Assembly: GCA_002869315.1 (NCBI GenBank)
Contig: PKTD01000027.1
Coordinates: 1 to 35,573 of the forward strand
DNA length: 35,573 nucleotides
Direction of reading: 5' to 3'
Origin: Marinilabiliales bacterium
GTDB lineage: Bacteria > Bacteroidota > Bacteroidia > Bacteroidales > F082
Position numbers and translations under genes: made by a program. The notes beneath the pieces are model-generated. The model was not told where the DNA came from. It was given only the letters and a program-made list of their open reading frames with translations, and ran no database searches. Shown piece after piece: positions 2,185 to 25,018 of the stretch. Numbering within the stretch: the first letter of the stretch is position 1; each line of letters opens with the position of its first letter.

Positions 2185-2212
2185 ATTTTTGAAAAAAGAA
2201 AATAATTCAGAT

Positions 2213-4498
2213 ATGAGAAATCTATATTCAATTTTTAGTCTAATTATGGTACTCATAACGGTATCTGTTTTCGGGCAAGATAGGGTTTACGCACCTTCTC
2301 TTAATTTACCTGAAAGCGGAGAAGTTGAGTTAGCTCCAAATGTTACACTCGATTGGAATGCAGTTACCGGCGGAACGCTAGAGGTTTTATACGAATTGCA
2401 AGTTGCCACTGAAGTTGATTTCAGTGATGCTACTACATTCCCTAAATCAGATTTAACTTCAAAAGAAATGGAGGACCTATATTTTGGTACAACTTATTTC
2501 TGGAGAGTAAGAGCATATGACGGTGAGGATGTTTCTGAATGGTCGGAAGAATGGTCATTTACAATTGCCAGTACTATAGAACTGGAAACTCCTAATAATG
2601 GAACAATGGTATATGCCAACCCAAAAGTTACATGGGTAGAATTAACCGGACTATTAAAGTATCAATTACAAATTGATACATCATATATATGGAATAATGT
2701 TGAACTAGCTACCACAGAAGATATTTTTGGCTCTTATGTAGTTGATGAAAATGATATGTGGTTAGTTGGAGATGACGGCCTTATTTTACATTATGATGGG
2801 TCCATTTGGAATAGCATGGATGGTGGAACAACTGAAGCATTAAACTCGGTAAATTTCGTAGACGCTACGCATGGTTTTATTGTTGGAGACAATGGTACAT
2901 TTTTATCATATGATGGCACTACATGGACGGCAATGGATGCAGGAACTACAGAAAATTTAAGAGCTGTAGCATTTGCCGATGCCGATAATGGCTATGCTGT
3001 TGGAGATGGTGGTGTTATTGTTAAATATGCCAGCGGAACTTTTAGCCTTGAAGTAGCCAGTGATGGTTCAAATGAAATTACTGAAGATTATACTGGAATA
3101 GATGTCCTGGATGCAAATAATTATTGGGCATGTGGATCAGGGAAAATTGTAATCAATTACAATGGAACTGATTGGACAGGAACCGAAGCAGGTACAAAGG
3201 ATCATAATGCAATTTGGTTTACCTCAGAAACCGATGGTTGGGTAGCCTCACAATCAGGAAAAATAAACCATTACGATGGTACAGAATGGGTAGAGTATTC
3301 AACATCATCAAAGCACTTATATGGTATAGCCGTAGACGGTGGCACTGCATATGCAGTTGGTAGAGATGGTGTAATGTGGACATTTAACGGTTCTGAATGG
3401 GAACAAATTACCTCAGGAACTACTCTTGATCTACTTACTATTTATATGGCTGATGGGTATGGCATTTCTGCCGGTGAAAGTGGAGTTTTAATAAATAAAG
3501 CAGGTGAAGGATTTAACTCTGAATGGAGTAAAGTTATCAGTATAAATGCTGACTCTACAAATTATCAGTTTGGCAACTTACTATTTGGAAAACCTTTCTA
3601 TTACAGAATAAGAGGAATTAATAATAATGATACTTCAGCATGGTCAGGAGCAAAATCAATGATTTCATATGACTATCCTGAACTTGACAATCCTTCAGAT
3701 GGTGCATCTGGTGAACAGTTGCAGGTTGAATTTGAATGGAGTGAATATGATGGTGTAACAAGATATTATATTGAAGTCTCAAAATTTGAAGATTTCTCTT
3801 CATCACTGAATTATATAACAGATACTGTAGGTATTATAATTAGTGGATTTAACTTCTCGGAAGAGTATTTTTGGAGAGTAAGGGCAGAACATCCAGAAGA
3901 CATTTCAAACTGGACTGAAGCCTTTTCATTTACAACAATTGATAAAATTGAACTAATTTCTCCTGAGAACGATGAAACAGGAGTAACAAGAAGTGTTAGA
4001 TTTGAGTGGGAAGAAGTATTAGGTGCAGCCTCATACGAAATAGTAATTGATCAGAATGAAAACTTCACTAATTCTGAAAAAGGCTTTGTTAACGATGCAT
4101 ATTATCAAACCATTAGCCCTCTGGATGAAAATGGAGTATACTACTGGAAAGTTAGAGGTGTTGCAGGTTTGGATACCTCCTCATGGAGTAATGTGTGGTC
4201 ATTTAAAGTAGAAGGACCTGATGCTATTGAAGACTTATTCTCAGAGAAATCTGTTAGATTATATCCAAATCCGAGTAATGGTATTTTTAATATTGAAATT
4301 AACAGTATAGACGCTGCTGAATACCAAATTATTATTTCGGATATGAGTGGAAAAGAAGTATATAATTCCTATTATTCAGCAAAACCAGGATCCAATGTAA
4401 TTGGAATAAATCTTGGAGATGATGTATCAAAGGGTATATATATGATAAATATTAAACGTGATAAAATTTCTGTTAACAAGAAAATGTTTAGGAAATAG
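2213..4498 (+). CDS. T9SS-sorted protein with fibronectin-III-like modules and a seven-bladed YCF48-like propeller
   Basis: I prefer the ATG at 2213 over the in-frame TTG at 2189 because it places a clean signal peptide (M-R-N-L-Y-S..., ending V-F-G-Q) at the N-terminus; the product is 761 aa. Modules in order: FN3-like about 25-120; the first half of a second FN3-like module about 122-165; seven YCF48/BNR-type repeats about 165-430, each carrying a variant of 'A-V-G-D-x-G-x-I-x-x-Y-D-G-x-x-W'; the second half of the FN3 module about 432-485 ('Y-Y-R-I-R-G'); two more FN3-like modules about 488-573 and 576-668; and a T9SS type A tail about 675-761 ('LYPNPSNGIFNIEI', 'KGIYMINI'). FN3 modules usually act as spacers or binding units, and YCF48-type propellers occur in secreted binding proteins. 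Role unknown; probably surface display or adhesion. It lies 28 nt after the preceding cargo gene and is followed by a strong terminator. Confidence 0.88.
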   Translation: MRNLYSIFSLIMVLITVSVFGQDRVYAPSLNLPESGEVELAPNVTLDWNAVTGGTLEVLYELQVATEVDFSDATTFPKSDLTSKEMEDLYFGTTYFWRVRAYDGEDVSEWSEEWSFTIASTIELETPNNGTMVYANPKVTWVELTGLLKYQLQIDTSYIWNNVELATTEDIFGSYVVDENDMWLVGDDGLILHYDGSIWNSMDGGTTEALNSVNFVDATHGFIVGDNGTFLSYDGTTWTAMDAGTTENLRAVAFADADNGYAVGDGGVIVKYASGTFSLEVASDGSNEITEDYTGIDVLDANNYWACGSGKIVINYNGTDWTGTEAGTKDHNAIWFTSETDGWVASQSGKINHYDGTEWVEYSTSSKHLYGIAVDGGTAYAVGRDGVMWTFNGSEWEQITSGTTLDLLTIYMADGYGISAGESGVLINKAGEGFNSEWSKVISINADSTNYQFGNLLFGKPFYYRIRGINNNDTSAWSGAKSMISYDYPELDNPSDGASGEQLQVEFEWSEYDGVTRYYIEVSKFEDFSSSLNYITDTVGIIISGFNFSEEYFWRVRAEHPEDISNWTEAFSFTTIDKIELISPENDETGVTRSVRFEWEEVLGAASYEIVIDQNENFTNSEKGFVNDAYYQTISPLDENGVYYWKVRGVAGLDTSSWSNVWSFKVEGPDAIEDLFSEKSVRLYPNPSNGIFNIEINSIDAAEYQIIISDMSGKEVYNSYYSAKPGSNVIGINLGDDVSKGIYMINIKRDKISVNKKMFRK

Positions 4499-10460: not shown

Positions 10461-11321
10461 ATGGGTTTCTTTTATTTTCTGGGACGTAAGAAATTTTATA
10501 TCCACTTCCTTATAATTATGGTTTTAACGATTATAATATTTTTAGGAGTGATGAAATCATTGGATTATTATACTCAACATGGTAAGGTATATTTAGTACC
10601 TGACTTTTATGGAAAGACCGTTGATCAACTCATTGAGAACCATTATGAAGAGTATTTTGACTTATTAGTTATCGATTCTGTTTTTGACAGGAATAACGAA
10701 AAAGGTGCAATTCTAATGCAAAATCCAAAGGCAGGATCTAAGGTAAAACAAGGAAGACATATTTACCTAACCGTTGTAGCTCAGCAACCTGAGAAAACCA
10801 TAATGCCCAACTTAAAGAATCTGTCTCTCCGCCAGGCAATAGTTACTTTAGAAATGAACAAACTCAAAGTAGGACGCTTAAACTATGTTGATTATTTTGC
10901 GCGAAATGCAGTTATCGACCAAACAATAAATGATGAAATAATTGAGGAAGGAACAGAACTAAATACTGGAACTTCAATTGATTTAACTGTTGGTAAGGGC
11001 AGAATGGATGTAAAAGTAAATATGCCATTGTTGATAGCTAAAAAACCCAAAGCTGTAATTAGCGCCTTACATTATGCCTCACTTAATTTAGGCAGAGTAT
11101 ATTTCACTGATGTAGAAGATACTACACATGCCAGAGTATATAAAACAGAACCAAGTATACTGGAATCTAAACTTGTGGATTTAGGAACGGATATAGATAT
11201 TTGGTATAGATCTGATGAATCTTTCGATTTCGATGAGTATTTACTAAAGTTTACAAGCGACACACTTAATGTTGATTCAACTTATATTGACAAAAATATT
11301 GATTTAAATGATGAATATTAA
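10461..11321 (+). CDS. PASTA-domain membrane protein
   Basis: The 286-residue protein has a short basic N-terminus, one membrane helix at about 16-34 (I-H-F-L-I-I-M-V-L-T...) and three extracytoplasmic PASTA-like repeats at about 42-110, 111-180 and 181-250. The first two carry the typical V/M-P-(D/N)-(F/L) start and a 'P-x-x-G-x-x-V/L-x-x-G' hairpin; the third is divergent. PASTA repeats bind peptidoglycan fragments or act as spacers in kinases and penicillin-binding proteins. Here no kinase or transpeptidase domain is attached, so it is a stand-alone membrane-tethered PASTA protein facing the periplasm. It is divergent from ddl and overlaps the next gene by 14 nt, indicating an operon with translational coupling. 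Confidence 0.9.
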   Translation: MGFFYFLGRKKFYIHFLIIMVLTIIIFLGVMKSLDYYTQHGKVYLVPDFYGKTVDQLIENHYEEYFDLLVIDSVFDRNNEKGAILMQNPKAGSKVKQGRHIYLTVVAQQPEKTIMPNLKNLSLRQAIVTLEMNKLKVGRLNYVDYFARNAVIDQTINDEIIEEGTELNTGTSIDLTVGKGRMDVKVNMPLLIAKKPKAVISALHYASLNLGRVYFTDVEDTTHARVYKTEPSILESKLVDLGTDIDIWYRSDESFDFDEYLLKFTSDTLNVDSTYIDKNIDLNDEY

Positions 11322-13452
11322 ATCACTACTAAGCATAATATTTAGCCTTTGCTTTACTTTCATTAGTGCTCAGGAAGTAATTACTGGCCTTCAGTTTAAT
11401 GAGATAGTTAAACACGAACACAGTGCACTTTCTACTGATAAACATCTTAATAATGACCAAGAAAAGACTTATCTTCATCTACCATTTTTTGATGATTTTG
11501 CTACTTCAAATATATACCCAGATAAAAATTTATGGCTAGACAATTATGTTTTTATAAACAGTGATTTTGCCTTCAGACCAACTAATATTGGGGTAGCAAC
11601 TTTCGATGCTGTTGATGATAAGGGGGCTATTTATCCCCATGCCGATTGGGTCCCTTTTCAGGCAGATTATTTGACGTCAGGATACATACGACTGGATACG
11701 GTTTTTGATCCAGTTGAAAAGGCTTTAAATCCTTCCGATTCAGTATATCTCAGTTTTTTCTATCAACCTCAGGGTATTGGTGAAAAACCAGAGTCATGGG
11801 ATACACTGGTATTAGAACTTAGTCGCCCCACTGGAGATACAATATTTGCTTACTATGATTCTATTAGTGTGAATATTGAGTATTACTTAAACTATTATGA
11901 AAAAGACACTTTATTTTCAGGGGATACGCTATGGTCACCACCAGGATGTAATCCAGATCTTTATGTAATTAACTACTCTACATTAACTGCCAATGATGGA
12001 TTTGTAAGCGTTATATGCGATTCTGTTATGGAAGCTGAATATGTTTGGGAAAAAGTGTGGAGCACTGAGGGAATGTCTTTGCAGGATTTTCAGAACTCCA
12101 CAGGAAAAGATTTTGTTCAGGTAATGATTCCTGTAAAAGATTCCGCATTTTTTACGAAAAACTTTCAATTCAGGTTTAAAAATTATGCCAGTATCGCCAA
12201 TGATGTACTTCCTACATGGAGAAGTAATGTGGATCATTGGAATATTGATTATGTATACTTAAATTATGAAAGAAGGAATTCTGATACTACCTATCGTAAA
12301 CTGGTATTTTCAGAAAGGGCTCCAAGTTTTCTGAAAAATTACGAGGTAATGCCTTATCGACAATATAAAGCAGATGCACCAGTAAACACTTTAAGGCCTG
12401 ATATAGAGATGTTTATTTCAAATCTAGATGATATTGGTCATAATACTAAATATTCCTATTCTTTTCAACAGTTAAACGGAAGTTATAGTATTAGATATGA
12501 CGGCGGAAGTTGTAATCTACCACCATTTTATTCTTTTGGTTTCCAAAATTGCGAAACAGGTTGCGGTGCTGCACATGCATGCCCTCCTGTATACCCATTT
12601 AACCTTGATTTTGATATAGACACTGCATCCTATATCATAAAACATTATATAAGTGATTCTTCTGAAACAAATATTCTGGTAGACTCTACCATATACAAAC
12701 AGGGCTTTTATAATTATTATGCTTATGATGATGGAACTCCTGAATTTGGGTATGGAAACGATTATTCCGGAGCAAAAGTCGCTTACAGATTTAATCTGAG
12801 TGTGGCTGATACTATTTTTGGGGTTCAGATGTACTTCAACAAAACACTTAATAATAGCAATGATATAAGTTTTGACCTACTTGTTTTCCAGGATAATAAT
12901 GGCAAACCAGGTGAGATAGTAGTGCGAAAAGAAAATCTTGAACCAGAATGGAATAATGGATTGTATGAGTTTTACACTTATTTATTTGATGACCCAAAAA
13001 TATTAAGCGGAACTTTCTATGTTGGCTGGGAACAGTTTCAAGCAGGTTCACTAAATGCTGGTTTCGACACACATAGAAATAGTTCAAATAACATATTCTA
13101 TACTGTTGATGATAACTGGTATCAAAGCAGTACTGAAGGTAGTTTAATGATCAGGCCAATTATTGGAAGTATTGGAGGTGAATATGTTTTTGGAACTGAT
13201 GAAATAATAAGTAGCGTTTCTGATATTAAAATATTCCCTAATCCTGCTCATAAAAGTTTTAAAGTCGACATAAATAATATTTCTCAACCGGAATCTGCTA
13301 TATTAAACATATATAATATTTATGGATCCCGAGTTTTATCCCAAATAGGTGTGGAAGGAAATATCGCAATAAGTAATTTACCAAAGGGAATTTATATAGT
13401 AAAAATTTCAGATTTGGGAAAAATATTCAGTTCTAAACTAATTATAAACTAA
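11308..13452 (+). CDS. T9SS type A-sorted secreted protein, function unknown
   Basis: Two adjacent ATG codons (11308 and 11311) lie inside the end of the PASTA gene; either gives a signal peptide ending I-S-A before Q-E (cut after residue 21). The 714-residue product has a long central region with no motif I recognise, including a Cys-rich segment around bases 12510-12590 (C-E-T-G-C-G-A-A-H-A-C-P-P) that may form disulfides. It ends in a T9SS sorting domain: 'IFPNPAHKSFKVDI', then 'ILNIYNIYGSRVL', then 'GIYIVKI' and a final K-L-I-I-N. The overlap with the PASTA gene and the 1-nt gap to the pseudouridine synthase gene place it inside an operon. Its repeated acidic, aromatic beta-type sequence suggests a cell-surface protein. 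Confidence 0.85.
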   Translation: MMNIKSLLSIIFSLCFTFISAQEVITGLQFNEIVKHEHSALSTDKHLNNDQEKTYLHLPFFDDFATSNIYPDKNLWLDNYVFINSDFAFRPTNIGVATFDAVDDKGAIYPHADWVPFQADYLTSGYIRLDTVFDPVEKALNPSDSVYLSFFYQPQGIGEKPESWDTLVLELSRPTGDTIFAYYDSISVNIEYYLNYYEKDTLFSGDTLWSPPGCNPDLYVINYSTLTANDGFVSVICDSVMEAEYVWEKVWSTEGMSLQDFQNSTGKDFVQVMIPVKDSAFFTKNFQFRFKNYASIANDVLPTWRSNVDHWNIDYVYLNYERRNSDTTYRKLVFSERAPSFLKNYEVMPYRQYKADAPVNTLRPDIEMFISNLDDIGHNTKYSYSFQQLNGSYSIRYDGGSCNLPPFYSFGFQNCETGCGAAHACPPVYPFNLDFDIDTASYIIKHYISDSSETNILVDSTIYKQGFYNYYAYDDGTPEFGYGNDYSGAKVAYRFNLSVADTIFGVQMYFNKTLNNSNDISFDLLVFQDNNGKPGEIVVRKENLEPEWNNGLYEFYTYLFDDPKILSGTFYVGWEQFQAGSLNAGFDTHRNSSNNIFYTVDDNWYQSSTEGSLMIRPIIGSIGGEYVFGTDEIISSVSDIKIFPNPAHKSFKVDINNISQPESAILNIYNIYGSRVLSQIGVEGNIAISNLPKGIYIVKISDLGKIFSSKLIIN

Positions 13453-15628: not shown

Positions 15629-17710
15629 ATGAAAAAGATTACATTTTTATTTCTATTAACAATATTGCTAACTACAAATTCCGCTATTGCGAATGGTGTA
15701 GCAATAAAAAACGCTTCTACAAGCGAATATTTCAAACTACTAAGCTCTGATGTACAGGTAACTGTTTACGACCAGATTGCAATAGTAGTAACAACTCAAA
15801 AGTTTCTAAACAATACAGGGGAAAAAACGAAAATTAAGTATGGGTTTCCATTGGCAGAAGGTGCAAATGGAATTAATTTAAGGTGGGAACTCTACGGACA
15901 ATGGAATTCGGCCTCAATTTCGCCATCTCCTCAGGATACTACACTTCCCGGAGGAGGAGGAGGAAATGAAACTCTAAAGGAATTTCTAGGTGAAACACCT
16001 TTGTTTTTTCCATTGGAAGATTCAATAGCAAACGATTCTATACTTACAATAGAGTTAACATATGTACAATTACTCCCTTATGATTTTTATGTTGTTGATT
16101 TCAAATATCCCAATGACTATTCACTCATTCAATCAGAAATTTTAAATTTTCAATCCATAAATTTCAATCTGGAATCACAAAGGATCATCACTAATTTGGA
16201 AATGACAAGCCATAATGCCGACAACACCGTGTTTAATGATAGCATTGGTGAATTTAATTATACTGAATATGAATCGGCAGCAACCACAGATTATGCGGCT
16301 TACTACGAACTTAGCCCTGATGATCTTGGACTATTTTCATATAGTACATATATAACTGATACCACCTTTAACTGCGATGATTTTGGAAATGGGTTTTTTA
16401 CTTTTATTGTTGAACCCGATCCTAGTTCCGAAGTTATTGAAAAAGTTTTTACCCTTATCATTGACAGGTCTGGAAGTATGAGTGGAAATAAAATTGTACA
16501 AGCCAGAGATGCGGCCACTTATATCGTTGATAATTTAAATGAAGGTGACTATTTTAACATAGTTGATTTTGCATCCAATGTAACAAGTTTATTTGAGGAT
16601 CATGTGGCTTTCGATTTAGCATCACAAAATACTGCATTCGATTATATTGACGGTATTAATGCTAATGGTTCAACAAATATATCAGGTGCTTTCGCAACAG
16701 CTATCCCTGATTTTGCTTCCAACGATACAACACTAGCAAATATTATTATTTTTCTAACAGATGGCGAAGCTACAGCAGGAATTACTGACACTGAGGGTAT
16801 TCTTGACTATATACAGGAACTTATTACAACAAATGAGGTCAACAACCTTCAAATTCATACTTTTGGTATTGGAGATTATACGAATGAAGTATTATTATCG
16901 CAAATTGCCTCACAAAATAATGGTTTAAGTGAGTTTTTGGGTGAAAATGAATTAGAAGATGTTATTACTTCCTTTTATAGAAAAATACGTAATCCTGTTC
17001 TTATAAATACTTCCATGGAAGTAACTCCACCCCTACTCAGTGAAATTTACCCAAATCCGTTGGATAATTTATACCTGGGTCAGCAATTGGTTGTCGTGGG
17101 CAGATATGACTCTGCGGCTCCTATTACCGTTAATTTTTCCGGCGAAGCATTCGGACAGCCAATATCATATGACTATGATGTAAATCTGGCAGACACAACA
17201 ATACCAAATAACCAGTTTCTGACGAAGCTTTGGGCCAAGAAAAAAATGGATAATCTGTTTATTTTATATCACAATTTTGACGAAAATTCCAACGAAGCTG
17301 AGGAGATAAAAAATGAGATTATAGATATTAGTATTTGCTATAATGTAATGAGCCCCTTTACTTCATATACCGGCGGTGGAGGTGGTGGCGGCACTACTTT
17401 TATTGAGTATGATGAAATGGACACTGAAACCATTGATCAAAAATCATATGCTAGCCCAAATCCGTTTACTAAGAATGCTACATTTAGTTTCTATGTAAAC
17501 AGCCAAATACAACAGCAAGCTACAATAAGCATATTTGATTCATTTGGTAGAATAATATTTATTGCTAAAGAACAAATAAATGGAATAGGTGAATACTCAA
17601 TTCACTGGAATGGTAATGATGTTAATGGTAATCCTGTACCAAAGGGATATTATTTTTATACAATCCAATTCGGAAATACAAGTTTAACAGGAAAAGTTAT
17701 CAAAATTTAG
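15629..17710 (+). CDS. VIT and vWA domain protein with T9SS/FlgD-like C-terminal domain
   Basis: The signal peptide (M-K-K-I-T-F-L-F..., cut near S-A-I-A-N) is followed by a VIT domain at about 25-150 and a von Willebrand A domain at about 272-450. The vWA domain has a complete metal-ion site: D-R-S-G-S at 279-283, a Thr in 'N-G-S-T-N-I-S-G', and T-D-G at 377-379. After it comes 'M-S-P-F-T-S-Y', reminiscent of the conserved S-x-Y-T-S segment of bacterial VIT/vWA proteins, then a seven-Gly linker near base 17380. The C-terminal beta domain carries 'W-N-G-N-D-V-N-G-N-P-V-P-K-G-Y-Y-F-Y', the FlgD-Ig/T9SS type A tail pattern. It is 693 aa. VIT+vWA proteins are metal-dependent adhesion or assembly proteins, and this one is predicted to be on the cell surface. 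It stands alone between two minus-strand genes. Confidence 0.88.
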   Translation: MKKITFLFLLTILLTTNSAIANGVAIKNASTSEYFKLLSSDVQVTVYDQIAIVVTTQKFLNNTGEKTKIKYGFPLAEGANGINLRWELYGQWNSASISPSPQDTTLPGGGGGNETLKEFLGETPLFFPLEDSIANDSILTIELTYVQLLPYDFYVVDFKYPNDYSLIQSEILNFQSINFNLESQRIITNLEMTSHNADNTVFNDSIGEFNYTEYESAATTDYAAYYELSPDDLGLFSYSTYITDTTFNCDDFGNGFFTFIVEPDPSSEVIEKVFTLIIDRSGSMSGNKIVQARDAATYIVDNLNEGDYFNIVDFASNVTSLFEDHVAFDLASQNTAFDYIDGINANGSTNISGAFATAIPDFASNDTTLANIIIFLTDGEATAGITDTEGILDYIQELITTNEVNNLQIHTFGIGDYTNEVLLSQIASQNNGLSEFLGENELEDVITSFYRKIRNPVLINTSMEVTPPLLSEIYPNPLDNLYLGQQLVVVGRYDSAAPITVNFSGEAFGQPISYDYDVNLADTTIPNNQFLTKLWAKKKMDNLFILYHNFDENSNEAEEIKNEIIDISICYNVMSPFTSYTGGGGGGGTTFIEYDEMDTETIDQKSYASPNPFTKNATFSFYVNSQIQQQATISIFDSFGRIIFIAKEQINGIGEYSIHWNGNDVNGNPVPKGYYFYTIQFGNTSLTGKVIKI

Positions 17711-17743: not shown

Positions 17744-18910
17744 TTAATAATTAAAAATTCCTTTTTCGGATGAAATTGTTAATTGCTTTGAGTTTGATTC
17801 CTCCACCCTACCAATAATTTGGGCATCAACATTAAATGAATTTGAAATATTTATAATATTCTGGGCAATGGCTTCAGGAACATACAATTCCATTCTATGT
17901 CCCATATTAAATACCTTATACATTTCTTTCCATTCTGTTCCAGATTGTTGTTGTATAAGTTTAAATAATGGTGGTATCTCAAACATATTATCCTTTATAA
18001 TATGCATATTATCAATAAAATGTAATACTTTTGTTTGAGCCCCTCCACTACAATGTATCATACCGTTTATTTGCTTACGAAATTTTTTAAGTATTTCTTT
18101 AATTATAGGTGCATATGTACGAGTTGGAGCTAATACCAGTTTACCAGCGTCAACACCATCAACCTCAGTATTGTCAGTAAGTTTCATATGACCTGAGTAA
18201 GTTAAATCTTCAGGAATAGAAGGATCGAAACTTTCCGGATATTTGTTAGCTATATATTTGGCAAATACATCATGGCGGGCAGAAGTAAGTCCATTACTTC
18301 CCATACCTCCATTATATTCATCCTCATAGGTTGCCTGTCCTGAAGATGACAAACCAACTATAACATCACCTGACTGAATATTGTTCTCAATTATATCTTC
18401 TTTTTTTATACGGGCAGTTACAGTACTATCAACTATTATTGTTCTCACAAGATCTCCGACATCAGCAGTTTCTCCTCCGGTGAGTATCATGTTTACTCCC
18501 AAATCTCTCATTTTAGCAAGAAAAGATTCAGTACCATTAATAATTTCAGCAATTACTTCACCTGGAATAATATTTTTATTCCTTCCAATTGTAGATGAAA
18601 GTAGAATATTATCTGTTGCTCCAATACAAAGCAAGTCGTCAGTATTCATAACTATCGCATCCTGAGCTATTCCTCGCCACACTGATATATCGCCGGTTTC
18701 TTTCCAATAAAGGTATGCAAGGGAAGATTTTGTACCTGCGCCATCAGCATGCATAATATTGCAATACTCATCATCAGAACCAAGAATATCGGGAATTACC
18801 TTACAAAAAGCGTTTGGAAATAATCCTTTATCAAGATTTTTTATTGCTGAATGAACATCTTCTTTGGACGCTGAAACCCCTCTTTTATCGTATCTGGATT
18901 GCGATTTCAT
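17744..18910 (-). CDS. purM: Phosphoribosylformylglycinamidine cyclo-ligase (AIR synthase)
   Basis: It converts FGAM to AIR with ATP in purine synthesis, in the cytoplasm. The 388-residue protein fits the divergent Bacteroidota PurM-type: 'Y-D-K-R-G-V-S-A-S-K' at the N-terminus, 'H-A-D-G-A-G-T-K-S' (equivalent to the usual G-T-D-G-V-G-T-K), 'M-N-T-D-D-L-L-C-I-G-A', the Gly-rich 'L-T-G-G-E-T-A-D-V-G-D' and 'G-L-S-S-S-G'. The usual L-G-G-F-G segment near the N-terminus is missing. The start ATG overlaps the stop of the OmpA-type gene (TAATG at 18908-18912 on the minus strand), pointing to translational coupling. No other purine gene is in the window. A non-purine AIR-synthase-like role is possible but less likely. 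Confidence 0.86.
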   Translation of the reverse strand: MKSQSRYDKRGVSASKEDVHSAIKNLDKGLFPNAFCKVIPDILGSDDEYCNIMHADGAGTKSSLAYLYWKETGDISVWRGIAQDAIVMNTDDLLCIGATDNILLSSTIGRNKNIIPGEVIAEIINGTESFLAKMRDLGVNMILTGGETADVGDLVRTIIVDSTVTARIKKEDIIENNIQSGDVIVGLSSSGQATYEDEYNGGMGSNGLTSARHDVFAKYIANKYPESFDPSIPEDLTYSGHMKLTDNTEVDGVDAGKLVLAPTRTYAPIIKEILKKFRKQINGMIHCSGGAQTKVLHFIDNMHIIKDNMFEIPPLFKLIQQQSGTEWKEMYKVFNMGHRMELYVPEAIAQNIINISNSFNVDAQIIGRVEESNSKQLTISSEKGIFNY

Positions 18911-21378
18911 TAATCGATAGTTAATTTGTGTGTTTGCTTATTATATTTAAAATCACCAAATTGTTTCAATGCTGCATCACCTAAAACAAGTCCGTAACGT
19001 AAACTATGCTTTACTTTTATTTTGAAATCCTTTACTGTTTTATTGGCAATGGTAATTTCTGGAATAATTATAATAGCATTATCACGTATTGAATTGTCCA
19101 CTAAAATTTCTGCGGCATCGCCTTCAAAGTTTTCTTTACCAATGGTTCCACCTTTTAATAACATTAGTGCTTTATCGAGTGATATCATGGCCTCTGAATG
19201 TCGGTCGTATGCAAATTCCTCATAATAACCCAAAATAACACATGTAGAAATAAATGTTCCTGTTCTGTCTTCCTCCTTAAATATGATAGAATTGTCATCA
19301 GGATTTATGAGGACATTCAATTCGTTTATATCAATATTTGAGGCAGATGGCACGAAGTCTTTTCGTAATACTCTAAATTCTGTTCTTCTATTAAGTTGGT
19401 GAGCATATTCTTTGGCATTATCTGTTTCCAGAGAGTTAATGAATTCTTCATCAAGAACAGTCCCCTCTTCAAATGAAACTCCATCTTGTGTTTTATTTAC
19501 TTTCAATACTCTTGGGACTCTTTCACCATATCCTTTTGCCACCAATCTAGCAGGCTCTATACCCCTGATTATCAAATAATCAACAACCGACTGCGCTCTT
19601 CTTTGTGAGAGTATATCATTTCTCTCGTCAGAATCTCGTATATCGGTATGAGAAGCTAACTCTATCACAAGATTTGGATTATCACGCAAGGTTTGTATTA
19701 AACCTTGAAGCGAATCCTGATATTGGGGTTTCAAATCCCATTTTGCAAGATCATATAAAATATCAGGTAAAACTACCGGTTCTGCCGGGATAGGTGATAA
19801 AATAATTTCTCTCTCAAAATCCTTACTAAATTCTACTCCTACAGTTGTAAGTGTTGCCTTACTATTCAAGTAATTAGGTTTTTGCACAATAATATCGTAG
19901 GTTGTATTTGGATCTACCTGACTATTCCCAAATGAGAAAAATCCTTCAGGATTTGTAATTGTTGTAACAGATATTCCGTTAGAGCCAACAAGTTGAACAT
20001 TTGCATTTTCTACGGCGAACAATGTTCTATCGTCAGTAACCGTACCAGATATTGTAAATAATAATGGAGGCTCAATGAAATACCAAATATCATCCTCACC
20101 TCTGGTTCCTTTTCTATTTGAACTTAGATAACCATATTCTTCCTCTGGATGAAAGATAATTGCATAATCGTCAAATGTTGAGTTAATGGGATACTTCAAA
20201 TTAACTGGTTTTCCCCAATTACCTGCTGTATCTATTGTAGTCATAAAAATATCAAGACCACCCATACCGCCATGGCCATCAGAAGCAAAGTAAAGTGTTG
20301 TATCGTTTCTCAGGAAGGGGAACATTTCATCTCCGGGAGTATTTACAATATCGCCAATATTCATTGGACGGCTAAATGCTTCTTTAGTTGATTCTCTCAT
20401 GGCCACCCAGATATCTTTACCTCCAAATCCACCTTTTCTTCCTGAGGAGAAATAAAGTAATAGTTCGCTTTCACTAATAGTAGGCTGTCCTATTACAGAC
20501 ATTGTATCTATACCATTAATTTCAACCATTTCAGGTTCCTGCCAATTACGTCCACTTCGTTTGGATTTATAAATCTGGCATCCTGAAATTTGTTTAGCAT
20601 CATTATGACAACGTGTAAAATACAAGGTTTTGAAATCAGCACTCATGGCTGGCGTTCCTTCATTCGCATTTGTATTAAGGGTTTCAGATTTATCAAGTAA
20701 TACCGGTGCTGACCATTCCTCTTTTCTGTCAAGTTTCGCTACAAATAAGTCGCTAAAGTTCTCCCCTGTCCATTCATCTGTAAGTTTGCCAGTGGCACCA
20801 TCACGTGTGGATCCAAAAACTATTTCATTATAATTTGAACTGGTAAAGGCTGCTGCAAAATCAGCCTCTCTGGAATTTATTTTTTTGACATTTGTAACTT
20901 CATATTTTGATGGATTTTCTATCCATTCTTGAATTAAAGCAGCAGATTCGGCTCCAGCCTCTCCTCTTGGATCATCAGGCACTCTCTCTATATAGGCATG
21001 ATATTGTTCGATAGACTCTTCATATTTACCATTAATCTTTAACATTTCAGCATAGCGTAAAAGCACAATTGGATTCTTTCTATACCATTCTTTTTTTACT
21101 AATAATTTATAAGAAATTTCTGCTCTTTTATAATTAGCAGTAAGACGATAACATTCGGCAAGTTGGGCGGTAATACGATTTTTCTCTTCCTTATTACGCT
21201 TTACTTTTGTATATGCCTTTTTATATTTATCGATGGCAATGCTATATTGTTGAGCATTGAATGCCTCATCAGCAGATTTAGCAGGGTTGCGTTGAGCTAA
21301 TAAGATGACAGGTAGTACAAACAGTATACTAAAAAGTATTATTCTAAGTGAATTCATCGACATCATATTATTTTTCAT
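18910..21378 (-). CDS. OmpA-family protein with TPR, PD40 propeller, CRD and C-terminal retropepsin-like domain (PorE-like)
   Basis: The 822-residue protein has a signal peptide (N-S-L-R-I-I-L-F..., ending L-L-A-Q), so it is periplasmic or in the outer membrane; starts at Met5, 6 or 8 are also possible. Order: TPR-like helices 35-140; WD40/PD40 propeller about 160-435 with repeats such as 'L-Y-F-S-S-G-R-K-G-G-F-G-G-K-D-I-W'; carboxypeptidase-regulatory-like domain 440-520; OmpA peptidoglycan-binding domain about 545-675 ('A-S-H-T-D', 'L-S-Q-R-R-A-Q-S-V', 'G-Y-G-E'). This matches the architecture known for the T9SS component PorE. A further segment at about 705-822 resembles Bacteroidota retropepsin-like proteases: 'F-A-Y-D-R-H-S-E-A-M-I-S-L-D-K-A-L-M-L-L-K' and 'G-L-V-L-G-D-A-A-L-K-Q-F-G', but D-T-G is D725-R-H. 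Many paralogues with the first four domains exist, so the PorE role is only an inference. It sits between tatA (35 nt away) and purM. Confidence 0.85.
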   Translation of the reverse strand: MKNNMMSMNSLRIILFSILFVLPVILLAQRNPAKSADEAFNAQQYSIAIDKYKKAYTKVKRNKEEKNRITAQLAECYRLTANYKRAEISYKLLVKKEWYRKNPIVLLRYAEMLKINGKYEESIEQYHAYIERVPDDPRGEAGAESAALIQEWIENPSKYEVTNVKKINSREADFAAAFTSSNYNEIVFGSTRDGATGKLTDEWTGENFSDLFVAKLDRKEEWSAPVLLDKSETLNTNANEGTPAMSADFKTLYFTRCHNDAKQISGCQIYKSKRSGRNWQEPEMVEINGIDTMSVIGQPTISESELLLYFSSGRKGGFGGKDIWVAMRESTKEAFSRPMNIGDIVNTPGDEMFPFLRNDTTLYFASDGHGGMGGLDIFMTTIDTAGNWGKPVNLKYPINSTFDDYAIIFHPEEEYGYLSSNRKGTRGEDDIWYFIEPPLLFTISGTVTDDRTLFAVENANVQLVGSNGISVTTITNPEGFFSFGNSQVDPNTTYDIIVQKPNYLNSKATLTTVGVEFSKDFEREIILSPIPAEPVVLPDILYDLAKWDLKPQYQDSLQGLIQTLRDNPNLVIELASHTDIRDSDERNDILSQRRAQSVVDYLIIRGIEPARLVAKGYGERVPRVLKVNKTQDGVSFEEGTVLDEEFINSLETDNAKEYAHQLNRRTEFRVLRKDFVPSASNIDINELNVLINPDDNSIIFKEEDRTGTFISTCVILGYYEEFAYDRHSEAMISLDKALMLLKGGTIGKENFEGDAAEILVDNSIRDNAIIIIPEITIANKTVKDFKIKVKHSLRYGLVLGDAALKQFGDFKYNKQTHKLTID

Positions 21379-21838: not shown

Positions 21839-24800
21839 TTATTTCTTTTTCTTAGACTTAGTTTCTTTATCCTTTTTATCCTTTAATGCATCTGATTTAC
21901 TTCCACCAAGCAAGTCATAAACAATCGGACTTGCTGTAAACAATGATGAATATGTAGCAATTAAAATACCTACTAACAATGCAAATACAAATCCACGGAT
22001 AACCTCACCACCAAAGATAAATATCATCAGCAATACAACAATTGTTGTACCTGAAGTATTTATAGTACGGGCAAGAGTTGAATTCAGTCCCGTATTAATA
22101 TTATCTATCAACTTATGTTTTGGGAATAGTGAATTATTCTCTCTGATACGGTCGAAGATAATAACAGTATCATTGATAGAGTAACCAATAATTGTCAGGA
22201 TAGCTGCAATAAAAGCCTGATCAACTTCCATACTAAATGGCATTACTGAGTAGAACAATGAGAACATACCCAATGTTATAAGTGTATCGTGGAACAATGC
22301 AGCAACACCTGCTAAACCATACTGCCATTTTCTAAATCTTACTGCTATATAAGCAAAGATTAAAATCAATGCGAATGAAATCGCCATGATAGCATTGTTT
22401 CTGATATCGTCGGCTATTGTTGGTCCTACTTTCTGCGAACTAAGGATTCCCAATAGTTTATTTTCTCCTTCTGTATCACTTGAGAAATCGTTATATCTGA
22501 TTTCAGTGGTATAGTAGTCTTTTAATCCGGTATATAATTTCGATTGTATTATTGAGTCTACCTCTCTACCTTCATCATCTATCATATATTTTGTGGTAAC
22601 CTTAATCTGGTTACTTGAACCAAATGTCTTCACCTCAGGTGCAACATTGTCGAATGAAGTAGTTAGTGACTTTCTTACATCAACTGTATTTACATTTTGA
22701 TCGAAACGTACTAAGTAAGTTCTACCTCCTGTAAAGTCGATACCATAGTTAAGACCAATTGTAGCCAAAGACCCTATACTAAGAATAATTAGAGCAAATG
22801 AAACAGCATATGCCTTCTTCCTACTTCCAATAAAGTTAAAATTAACGTTTGATAAAACATTAGCGGTAGCTTTACTAGCAAATGCGATAGGCATATTCTT
22901 TCTCTGCATCCATGTAAAAGTCATTCTTGTAATAAAGATGGCTGTAAACAATGATGATAGAATACCTATAATAAGAGTAGTTGCAAAACCCTGAACAGGA
23001 CCTGAACCAAATACGTAAAGAACAATACCAGTTAATAATGTTGTAACGTTACCATCCACAATTGCCGAATATGCATTCTTATAACCATCCACAATTGCGA
23101 GTTGCATTCCTTTACCGGCTCGCACCTCCTCTTTAATACGCTCATAAATAATTACGTTGGCATCCACCGCCATACCAAGGGTAAGTACAATACCTGCCAT
23201 ACCTGGCAGTGTAAGTACTGCACCTATAGAAGCAAGTACTCCAAAAAGGAAGAATATATTTGTAATAAGTGCAATATTGGCAACAACACCTGCACGGCTA
23301 TAATAAACAATCATATAAGCCAGTACAAGAATAAACGCAAGAATAAATGAGTTCATTCCTGAGTTAACAGCTTCACGACCAAGAGAAGGTCCTACTACGT
23401 TTTCCTCAACAATATGTGCAGCAGCAGGAAGTTTACCCGCTTTTAGAATATTTCCAAGGTCTTGAGCCTCTTCAATTGTCATTCCTCCTCCTGAAATTGT
23501 AGAACGTCCGGATGGAATTTCATCATTTACAACTGGGAAAGAATAAACATAATCATCAAGGACGATTGCAATTTGTCTTCCAATATTTTCACCAGTTAAT
23601 CTCTTCCAGATTTTAGCACCCTGTGAGTCCATCTGAAGGTCAACTGTAACTTCTCCATTTTGTCCATAATCCTGACGAGCATCTGCAATAACATCACCAC
23701 CCATAGCGGCACTACCATCACGTGAACTGGCTTTCAATGCAACCAACTCCAAAAAGTCGGGAGCTTGAGGACTAGGCTTAACACTCCATACTAAACGCAT
23801 TTCCCTTGGGAATACATCTTTAACTTTGGACAACATATAGTTGATACGAGCTGTATCTTTAATGGCAGCCATACCTACACGTGCTGTTTTAACTGCAAAA
23901 GGTCTTCCTGACTCATCAGTACTATATGAAGGCATTAAATAAGCATAAAGAGGATTATCTTTAGCATATTGCTCAAAATCTGCTTCATTATTAGCGGCTG
24001 TTGTATCAGCTTCAATTTGCTCCAACAGTTGGTTTGATGAAGTATCCGCAACATTTTCAATTGCTTCAGCAATTTCATTGTTTTCTTCGGCTGCAATAGT
24101 TTCATCTTTAGAAACTTCTCCTTCAGGAGTTTCTCCAACACCTTCATCAGCGATACTTTTCTCTACGCTCATTTCTTGCTTTAGCCTTTTATTGGCATCA
24201 TCGAAATAAGAATAAACTTCTGAAAAGTTATATGTTTCCCAGAACTCTAATTTGGCAGTTCCCTGTAAAAGTTTTCTTACACGTTCCTGATCTTTAATAC
24301 CTGGCAATTCTATAAGAATGCGACCAGTAGTTGCAAGTTTTTGAATATTTGGCTGTGCAACACCAAAGCGGTCGATACGAGTACGAAGGATCTGGAATGA
24401 TCTGTCGATAGCACCTTCTGCTTCTGTTCTGATAACCTGAAGAACTTCCTGGTTAGTTGAACTGGTTGTAATTCCCTTGTCTTTAAATTCGAAGAGGAAT
24501 ATTGATGCCAAACGTGCGTTTGGATCTACTTCATTAAATGCCTGACCAAACAGAGTTACAAAATCATCACCACTGTTTTTTTGCTTTTGATGAGCAAGAG
24601 TCATTGCCTGACGGAAAACCGGATCCTGGCTGTTACCTGAAAGGGCGTTAACGATATCAGAAACCGAAACTTCCAATGTTACGTTCATACCACCTTTAAG
24701 GTCGAGACCCAGGTTGATTTCACGTTCTTTTACATCATTATAAGTATACTTAACTATACCTAAATTATACACAACAACATTTGCAATGCTGTCGAGATAA

Positions 24801-25018
24801 TATTTTTCTCTTTTTTGGGAGATAGAATCAAACAAATATGATTCTTTAACTTCGTCTCCATTGGCCAAATCTTTTGCCAGTTGCTGAGCAGTTTCATTTA
24901 CAGCGTAATCTTTAGCATTTCCTTCTGCGTTATAAGCAAAGAAAGTAAAACTAAGTTGATATAAACAAACTAATGCAAAGGCGATTGCAAAAAACTTAAT
25001 AGCTCCTCTGTTCTGCAT
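21839..25018 (-). CDS. secDF: Fused protein translocase subunit SecDF
   Basis: It uses the proton gradient to help pull proteins across the inner membrane after SecA/SecYEG. The 1059-residue fusion is typical of Bacteroidota. The SecD half has an N-terminal membrane helix (about 8-29), 'L-G-L-D-L-K-G-G-M-N-V' at the start of the periplasmic P1 domain, and 'G-I-V-L-T-L-G-M-A-V-D-A-N-V-I-I-Y-E-R-I' in the helix-4 region. The SecF half has 'G-I-D-F-T-G-G-R-T-Y' and 'G-Y-S-I-N-D-T-V-I-I-F-D-R-I-R-E'. About 12 membrane helices in total are expected. An acidic, low-complexity stretch of about 75 residues interrupts P1 at about bases 23940-24170. The C-terminal tail is Lys-rich. A consensus promoter and a terminator bracket the gene, so it is a single-gene transcript. 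Confidence 0.97.
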   Translation of the reverse strand: MQNRGAIKFFAIAFALVCLYQLSFTFFAYNAEGNAKDYAVNETAQQLAKDLANGDEVKESYLFDSISQKREKYYLDSIANVVVYNLGIVKYTYNDVKEREINLGLDLKGGMNVTLEVSVSDIVNALSGNSQDPVFRQAMTLAHQKQKNSGDDFVTLFGQAFNEVDPNARLASIFLFEFKDKGITTSSTNQEVLQVIRTEAEGAIDRSFQILRTRIDRFGVAQPNIQKLATTGRILIELPGIKDQERVRKLLQGTAKLEFWETYNFSEVYSYFDDANKRLKQEMSVEKSIADEGVGETPEGEVSKDETIAAEENNEIAEAIENVADTSSNQLLEQIEADTTAANNEADFEQYAKDNPLYAYLMPSYSTDESGRPFAVKTARVGMAAIKDTARINYMLSKVKDVFPREMRLVWSVKPSPQAPDFLELVALKASSRDGSAAMGGDVIADARQDYGQNGEVTVDLQMDSQGAKIWKRLTGENIGRQIAIVLDDYVYSFPVVNDEIPSGRSTISGGGMTIEEAQDLGNILKAGKLPAAAHIVEENVVGPSLGREAVNSGMNSFILAFILVLAYMIVYYSRAGVVANIALITNIFFLFGVLASIGAVLTLPGMAGIVLTLGMAVDANVIIYERIKEEVRAGKGMQLAIVDGYKNAYSAIVDGNVTTLLTGIVLYVFGSGPVQGFATTLIIGILSSLFTAIFITRMTFTWMQRKNMPIAFASKATANVLSNVNFNFIGSRKKAYAVSFALIILSIGSLATIGLNYGIDFTGGRTYLVRFDQNVNTVDVRKSLTTSFDNVAPEVKTFGSSNQIKVTTKYMIDDEGREVDSIIQSKLYTGLKDYYTTEIRYNDFSSDTEGENKLLGILSSQKVGPTIADDIRNNAIMAISFALILIFAYIAVRFRKWQYGLAGVAALFHDTLITLGMFSLFYSVMPFSMEVDQAFIAAILTIIGYSINDTVIIFDRIRENNSLFPKHKLIDNINTGLNSTLARTINTSGTTIVVLLMIFIFGGEVIRGFVFALLVGILIATYSSLFTASPIVYDLLGGSKSDALKDKKDKETKSKKKK

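Follow-up and report, generated by a model that had tools for sequence, protein, structure and literature searches.

The window analysed here, the whole stretch of 35,573 nucleotides on contig PKTD01000027.1 of a Marinilabiliales bacterium, encodes a PorE-type protein that continues for about 150 residues beyond its OmpA domain. The best NCBIfam model for this protein is T9SS_PorE (NF052230), which scores 570.5 bits over residues 27-672, reaches the profile end (648/648) and stays below the NCBIfam cut-off of 600. According to Pfam, the protein follows the PorE domain order of TPR, beta-propeller, CRD and OmpA_C-like domain, with weak evidence for the TPR part. The following features lie at the locus:

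18910-21378, reverse strand: PorE-type protein of 822 residues with a fifth, C-terminal domain (ORF, Pfam and NCBIfam)
21295-21378, reverse strand: signal peptide, about residues 1-28 (LLAQ-R), without a lipobox Cys (limits set by eye, N-termini compared)
20929-21282, reverse strand: TPR region, about residues 33-150 (weak Pfam TPR matches; position by analogy to PorE residues 25-149, PMC7192894)
20074-20871, reverse strand: beta-propeller region, about residues 170-435 (PD40 at 342-378; limits by analogy to PorE residues 167-435, PMC7192894)
19840-20055, reverse strand: carboxypeptidase regulatory-like domain, residues 442-513 (PF13620, CarboxypepD_reg, E 8.2e-9)
19366-19770, reverse strand: OmpA-type peptidoglycan-binding domain, residues 537-671 (PF00691, E 5.2e-15; PDB 6top_B, E 3.2e-27)
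18913-19311, reverse strand: predicted pseudo-retropepsin domain, about residues 690-822 (AlphaFold2 model m0df64e221774, Foldseek, VIA-align and hhalign)
19180-19215, reverse strand: former catalytic loop F-A-Y-D725-R-H-S-E-A-M-I-S, residues 722-733 (aligned with F-I-F-D-T-G-A-S of homologues)
19072-19119, reverse strand: flap segment, residues 754-769 (by alignment; includes columns 92-100, conserved as in D-T-G homologues)
18979-18990, reverse strand: hydrophobic-hydrophobic-Gly motif L-V-L-G800 (by alignment; retained in 98 of 139 fused tails)
17744-18910, reverse strand: PurM/AIRS-like gene (Pfam), whose ATG shares one base with the PorE stop codon
21414-21746, reverse strand: TatA-type gene upstream of PorE (PF02416)
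21839-25018, reverse strand: SecDF gene upstream of PorE (Pfam SecD/SecF domains)

PDB 6top, the best PDB match of the OmpA-type domain, is the corresponding PorE domain of Porphyromonas gingivalis. As read from the sequence, no Cys follows the signal peptide, and the protein thus lacks the lipoprotein character of PorE. The genome encodes a T9SS, including SprA (2640.8 bits), four PorP-family genes and cargo sorting domains inside the window. Together with the PorE-type architecture, these genes support the proposal of the preliminary description that the protein may be tethered to peptidoglycan near the T9SS. Of the four window genes at 28-2184, 2189-4498, 11308-13452 and 15629-17710, three clearly carry a T9SS C-terminal sorting domain, and the remaining one shows weaker matches and also has VIT and VWA domains.

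The Pfam and NCBIfam searches conducted here left the tail stretch blank. By itself, the window tail matched no Pfam family, Pfam being silent past about residue 624, and its kinship is therefore visible only via alignment or structure. The window tail alone also gave no useful match against the PDB, so that profiles were required. The tail could be aligned in 38 relatives; for the window tail neither PF13975 nor PF13650 exceeded the gathering score, and among the 38 members the best E-value was 5.2e-5 for gag-asp_proteas, a Pfam family touched by 18 of them, with nine touching DUF4957 (best E 0.0022). Against the PDB, the 38-tail profile found Rickettsia APRc at E 0.005, ahead of an unrelated chain at E 0.21, and aligned the Asp of Y-D-R with the catalytic Asp of APRc.

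A single-chain AlphaFold2 model of the tail, built from the window tail and 48 tails from named records, reached a pLDDT of 85.7 and a pTM of 0.77, with 114 of 154 residues at pLDDT >=90 and the first 22 (residues 669-690) below 50. A Foldseek search of the PDB with this model returned APRc 5c9f_A as the top match (E 1.1e-5, probability 1.00), and all 11 chains at E<=0.001 were APRc or Ddi1 retropepsin domains. VIA-align superimposed the model on Ddi1 7d66_E (Z 11.7, 2.1 Å over 99 residues) and APRc 5c9f_B (Z 11.1, 2.9 Å over 110 residues). Furthermore, hhalign joined the 49 tails to 23 homologues without a PorE core (99.8%, E 1.5e-27, 125 columns) and put D725 on the catalytic Asp of D-T-G-bearing Bacteroidota homologues. 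On the strength of these models and alignments, the tail domain is almost certainly retropepsin-like.

The preliminary description had suggested this fold from the letters alone, and its matches to APRc and Ddi1 bear the suggestion out. The motif FAYDRHS and the segments MISLDKALMLLKGG, ITIANKTVKDFKIKV and GLVLGDAALKQFG on which it drew were all found in the tail of the 822-residue ORF (18910-21378, reverse strand), the D of D-R-H-S being residue 725 (codon 19206-19204). The interval 18913-19275 given for the domain corresponds to residues 702-822, the confident part of the model starting slightly before it, near residue 691. The D-T-G from which D-R-H was thought to derive is present at the aligned position in homologues, yet these lack a PorE core. 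Neither of the two outcomes that the preliminary description named as refuting, an unrelated fold or the absence of D-T-G from the homologues, was thus observed.

The loss of the motif was quantified in 139 distinct fused tails, which remained from the fetched loci after removal of fragments and include close relatives, 94 remaining below 72% identity. Before counting, we dropped one fused fragment (L010-2_8), two fragments in which the loop is missing (L010-2_9 and L089), a contig-edge piece that is probably a fused tail and has no D-T/S-G in its loop (L182) and a duplicate reading of the L183 protein (L187-1_0); a match with a broken frame in G297 was not in the set. D-T-G occurs in none of the 139 PorE-fused tails, and D-S-G in a single one (L029, from G025), where 0.48 would be expected by chance from the column frequencies and where the loop has one residue less than that of D-T-G homologues. 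By contrast, 22 of the 23 homologues without a PorE core carry D-T/S-G. The remaining homologue, L171 (G585), has D-T-L in place of D-T-G, possibly a second, separate loss. The D-T-G motif is thus lost across the whole PorE-fused group, beyond the window protein alone.

The preliminary description had called for an alignment to see whether D-R-H is conserved; an acid proved common in the D725 column (99 of 139 fused tails, D in 86) without being fixed, and there is free variation at the positions of T and G. The frequent acid and the single D-S-G are what one would cite for a tail that still cleaves proteins by an unusual catalytic arrangement using D725 in D-R-H. We regard such an activity as extremely improbable given that 40 of the 139 tails have no acid in that column, that T or S follows in only six and G in the column thereafter in only 18, and that the loop is one residue shorter in 71 tails than in all 23 other homologues. 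It is very likely that the tail is not a normal aspartic protease.

The three D-T-G columns have a mean entropy of 3.00 bits in the 94 fused representatives (2.68 bits, minimum 2.26, in size-matched draws of the fused set) compared to 0.27 bits in the 23 homologues, whereas the flap columns 92-100 stand at 1.90 bits in the fused set (1.71 size-matched) compared to 1.73 in the 23 homologues. The helix region (columns 64-85) has 1.83 bits in both sets, and columns 30-153 overall have 2.35 bits in the fused set (2.11 size-matched) versus 1.82. The catalytic positions have thus been released and the flap has not, which argues that this side of the domain is still in use. The flap constraint could also come from folding or self-association, the helix region being as constrained in both sets. 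In a domain tree (123 columns), a single branch with a support of 0 separates the 94 fused domains from the 23 others, so that the tree is compatible with a single origin of the D-T-G loss and no more.

Relatives of the whole window protein were present in all 61 genomes searched, the window genome included. The fused form was found at E<=1e-5 in 40 of these genomes and a PorE over the NCBIfam cut-off in 14, with no overlap between the two sets; seven genomes had neither, and in at least one of these (G001) a contig edge truncates the PorE gene. The 16 over-cut-off PorE ORFs comprise 654-738 residues, and the tail profile found nothing at E<=1e-5 in the 14 genomes that encode them. In the 40 fused-form genomes, PorE scores range from 476 to 592 bits, every one of them under 600. 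SprA, the T9SS translocon, is encoded in 60 of the 61 genomes, including all 40 with the fused form. The tail profile matches 91 of 294 genomes from the order, of which 81 have the fused form, eight have other homologues only, one has a contig-edge piece and one a broken frame; these classes were assigned by hand, and in many genomes the scoring covered only 13 candidates. Among 296 genomes across the phylum, matches were limited to the window genome and four others, none of the four being fused.

The order of the genes around PorE is kept in the 49 loci of the named records, all of which are MAGs: TatA is present in 45, the PurM-like gene in 45 and SecDF in 31, several of these loci stopping at contig edges. 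A PurM-like gene also lies within 3 kb (<=3 kb) of four of the 14 over-cut-off PorEs without a tail, and the full SecDF-TatA-PorE-PurM order surrounds one PorE with a replaced tail (L041/L269, G048:C439). In the latter protein, a low-complexity stretch rich in Q, P, K and T stands in place of the retropepsin-like domain. The shared neighbourhood favours the same ancestral locus for tailed and untailed PorE, and it thus looks as if PorE itself had gained or lost the tail in a lineage-specific manner. In an unrooted PorE-core tree of 47 tailed and 16 untailed rows, the tail label needs four changes, at least two of them by starred branches, and twelve untailed rows form one clade in the quick tree (SH-aLRT 100); this tree is compatible with gain as well as with loss of the tail. 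The idea that the tail goes together with lipobox loss was tested and dropped: counted by eye, and with L019 and L117 (tailed) and L047 (untailed) set aside for a Cys before the likely start, only L250 and L251 of the 16 untailed rows seem to have a lipobox, as do the tailed L204 and L208.

Selection on the tail was assessed in 15 pairs, four of which had no usable tail dS. Among these four are the pairs of the window protein with its two nearest relatives, for which dS is saturated, so that the selection claim rests on the other pairs. Tail dN/dS was 0.00-0.11 in 10 of the 11 computable pairs and 0.244 in one distant pair, and core dN/dS was 0.014-0.056 where computable; in several pairs the tail is somewhat less constrained than the core (e.g., 0.111 versus 0.023). 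These values support the maintenance of the tail by purifying selection in the relatives, in line with the earlier suggestion that the domain is kept. In addition, 138 of the 139 fused tails matched the profile nearly end to end. A decaying relic or a spacer without function might be suspected from the missing catalytic residues and from the relatives that do without the domain, such as L041 with its low-complexity tail. Against the low tail dN/dS in 10 of 11 pairs, the nearly full length of the tails and the presence of the domain in 81 of the 294 genomes of the order, this explanation is improbable.

The window genome contains a second fused PorE-like gene (L173, G000:C72:1-3036), which is 42.7% identical, is cut by the contig start and has an end that abuts a PorP-family gene. 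In G012 (L271 1-7380), a T9SS cargo gene, a tailed PorE-like gene and a PorP-family gene stand in a row, and in G082 (L273 3-2317) a tailed PorE-like gene overlaps a PorP-family gene by 4 bases. The sorting type of the G012 cargo is ambiguous, as it matches both an internal type B domain (residues 1146-1231, 52.7 bits, cut-off 35) and a terminal type A domain (27.2 bits, cut-off 23). These three are the clear second copies among the tail-profile matches, a 72-residue contig-edge piece in G009 being excluded. PorP adjoins second copies only, the main PorE locus having no adjacent PorP. In F. johnsoniae, six porP-like genes have been described to adjoin porE-like genes, and in P. gingivalis PorE binds PorP, for which the N-terminal TPR or propeller of PorE has been suggested as the site, PorP binds the type B cargo PG1035, and cross-linking suggests a direct PorE-PG1035 contact as well (PMC9143113).

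The tail could also form a heterodimer in which it is the inactive partner of a separate D-T-G homologue. A separate homologue is indeed encoded in seven of the 81 fused-form genomes (G039, G108, G138, G197, G221, G249 and G282), and also in G012. The other 74 show no separate homologue of the subfamily at E<=1e-5, by a hand count that may miss some, since in many genomes only 13 candidates had been scored. In the window genome, for which all candidates were scored, the profile found only the two fused copies, and a PF13650 search yielded one distant two-motif protein. A heterodimer is thus very improbable.

The reading that we lean towards is that the tail is a non-catalytic protein-binding module on the peptidoglycan anchor of the T9SS. 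The predicted fold, the homology to D-T-G domains, the loss of the triad, the selection in relatives, the genome context and the replacement of untailed PorE are results of computation, from which we infer binding. The three second copies beside PorP-family genes and the binding of PorP by PorE in P. gingivalis speak for this reading; the score below the PorE cut-off, the missing lipobox, the functioning of P. gingivalis PorE without such a domain and the main PorE locus with no neighbouring PorP speak against it. A domain of retropepsin fold would have lost catalysis in the fused group and become a fixed fifth domain of the PorE-type protein. After export, the OmpA domain would grip peptidoglycan, as described for PorE of P. 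gingivalis (PMC7192894), and the N-terminal domains might dock to PorP as proposed for that protein. Beside the peptidoglycan-bound domain, the tail could then bind a protein segment under its retained flap without cutting it. This segment would most likely belong to a T9SS partner, be it a PorP-type barrel, the PorK/N ring or cargo, and thereby give the anchor an extra contact.

Retropepsins work as dimers, and the tail might instead serve mainly for homodimerisation, with PorE tails pairing in the retropepsin manner and cross-linking neighbouring anchors without any ligand groove. The well-kept last strand (F in column 153 in 78 of 94 rows) is consistent with such pairing, as is the precedent of the RloA retropepsins, in whose dimers the subunits meet through their D-T-G loops and a strand platform (PMC12239564). 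However, the D-T-G loop, which lies at the dimer interface in active enzymes, is the very part that drifts here, and we consider homodimerisation possible but rather unlikely as the main role.

With the binding module as the preferred reading, the T9SS wall anchor might exist as a variant in part of the order, a former protease groove acting as a peptide-binding hand on PorE that holds a segment of PorP-type barrels or cargo beside the peptidoglycan. We put this forward as speculation that probably goes too far; if true, second copies of PorE and PorP would belong together as sets, each with a tail specificity of its own. The T9SS is proposed to be connected to the cell wall through PorE, and little is understood about how this machine is anchored. 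That a lineage without ordinary PorE conserves a fifth domain suggests an additional partner or oligomeric state of the anchor in these bacteria. The tail also provides a bacterial case of a retropepsin fold that has given up catalysis, yet stays under selection.

A full-text search of the literature, with most subscription journals outside its coverage, yielded no description of this PorE-fused retropepsin-like domain, nothing joining PorE of the T9SS with a retropepsin and nothing on a pseudo-retropepsin; on retropepsins and Bacteroidota it yielded the RloA paper, which gives the phyla of RloA hits (PMC12239564). Some PG1058 homologues have been mentioned to possess N- and C-terminal extensions (data not shown in Heath et al., 2016, PMC5053529). 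PorE (PG1058) of P. gingivalis shares with the window protein the order of TPR, beta-propeller, CRD and OmpA domains. Its last domain spans residues 534-668 (PMC7192894), whereas the window protein runs about 150 residues past OmpA, and it is a lipoprotein anchored in the outer membrane, whereas the window protein has no lipobox Cys. P. gingivalis PorE works without a retropepsin-like domain.

Among retropepsins, the window tail shares its predicted fold with Ddi1 (Foldseek and VIA-align), and with APRc of Rickettsia (PDB 5c9b/5c9f) both the fold and the aligned catalytic loop. APRc, described as an aspartic protease, retains D-T-G where the tail has D-R-H. The RloA retropepsins of Pseudomonas likewise have the retropepsin fold and, unlike the D-R-H tail, form active D-T-G dimers; Bacteroidota account for 20% of RloA hits (PMC12239564), and no analysis conducted here places the tail in the RloA family. 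The window genome also encodes a protein of 430 residues with two D-T-G motifs and a lipobox-like start (L090 2183-3475, G000:C263), possibly a single-chain two-lobed aspartic protease judging from its sequence.

By tail profile, the nearest relatives are Bacteroidota clan AA proteins without a PorE core, free-standing or fused to TPRs (PF13975, near TIGR02281; e.g., L197, L082 and L184), with E-values of, e.g., 2.7e-23 for L082 and 1.4e-18 for L083. According to Pfam, a D-T-G-A retropepsin domain forms the C-terminus of the large TPR proteins L082, L181, L183, L187 and L189, and these relatives of the tail are probably active. The TPRs of L184 come after the protease domain, and in L178 (G138) a D-T-G-A retropepsin domain is followed by a Fib_succ_major domain. 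The clan AA proteins have the flap and the hydrophobic-hydrophobic-Gly motif in common with the window tail, from which they differ in that 22 of 23 keep D-T/S-G.
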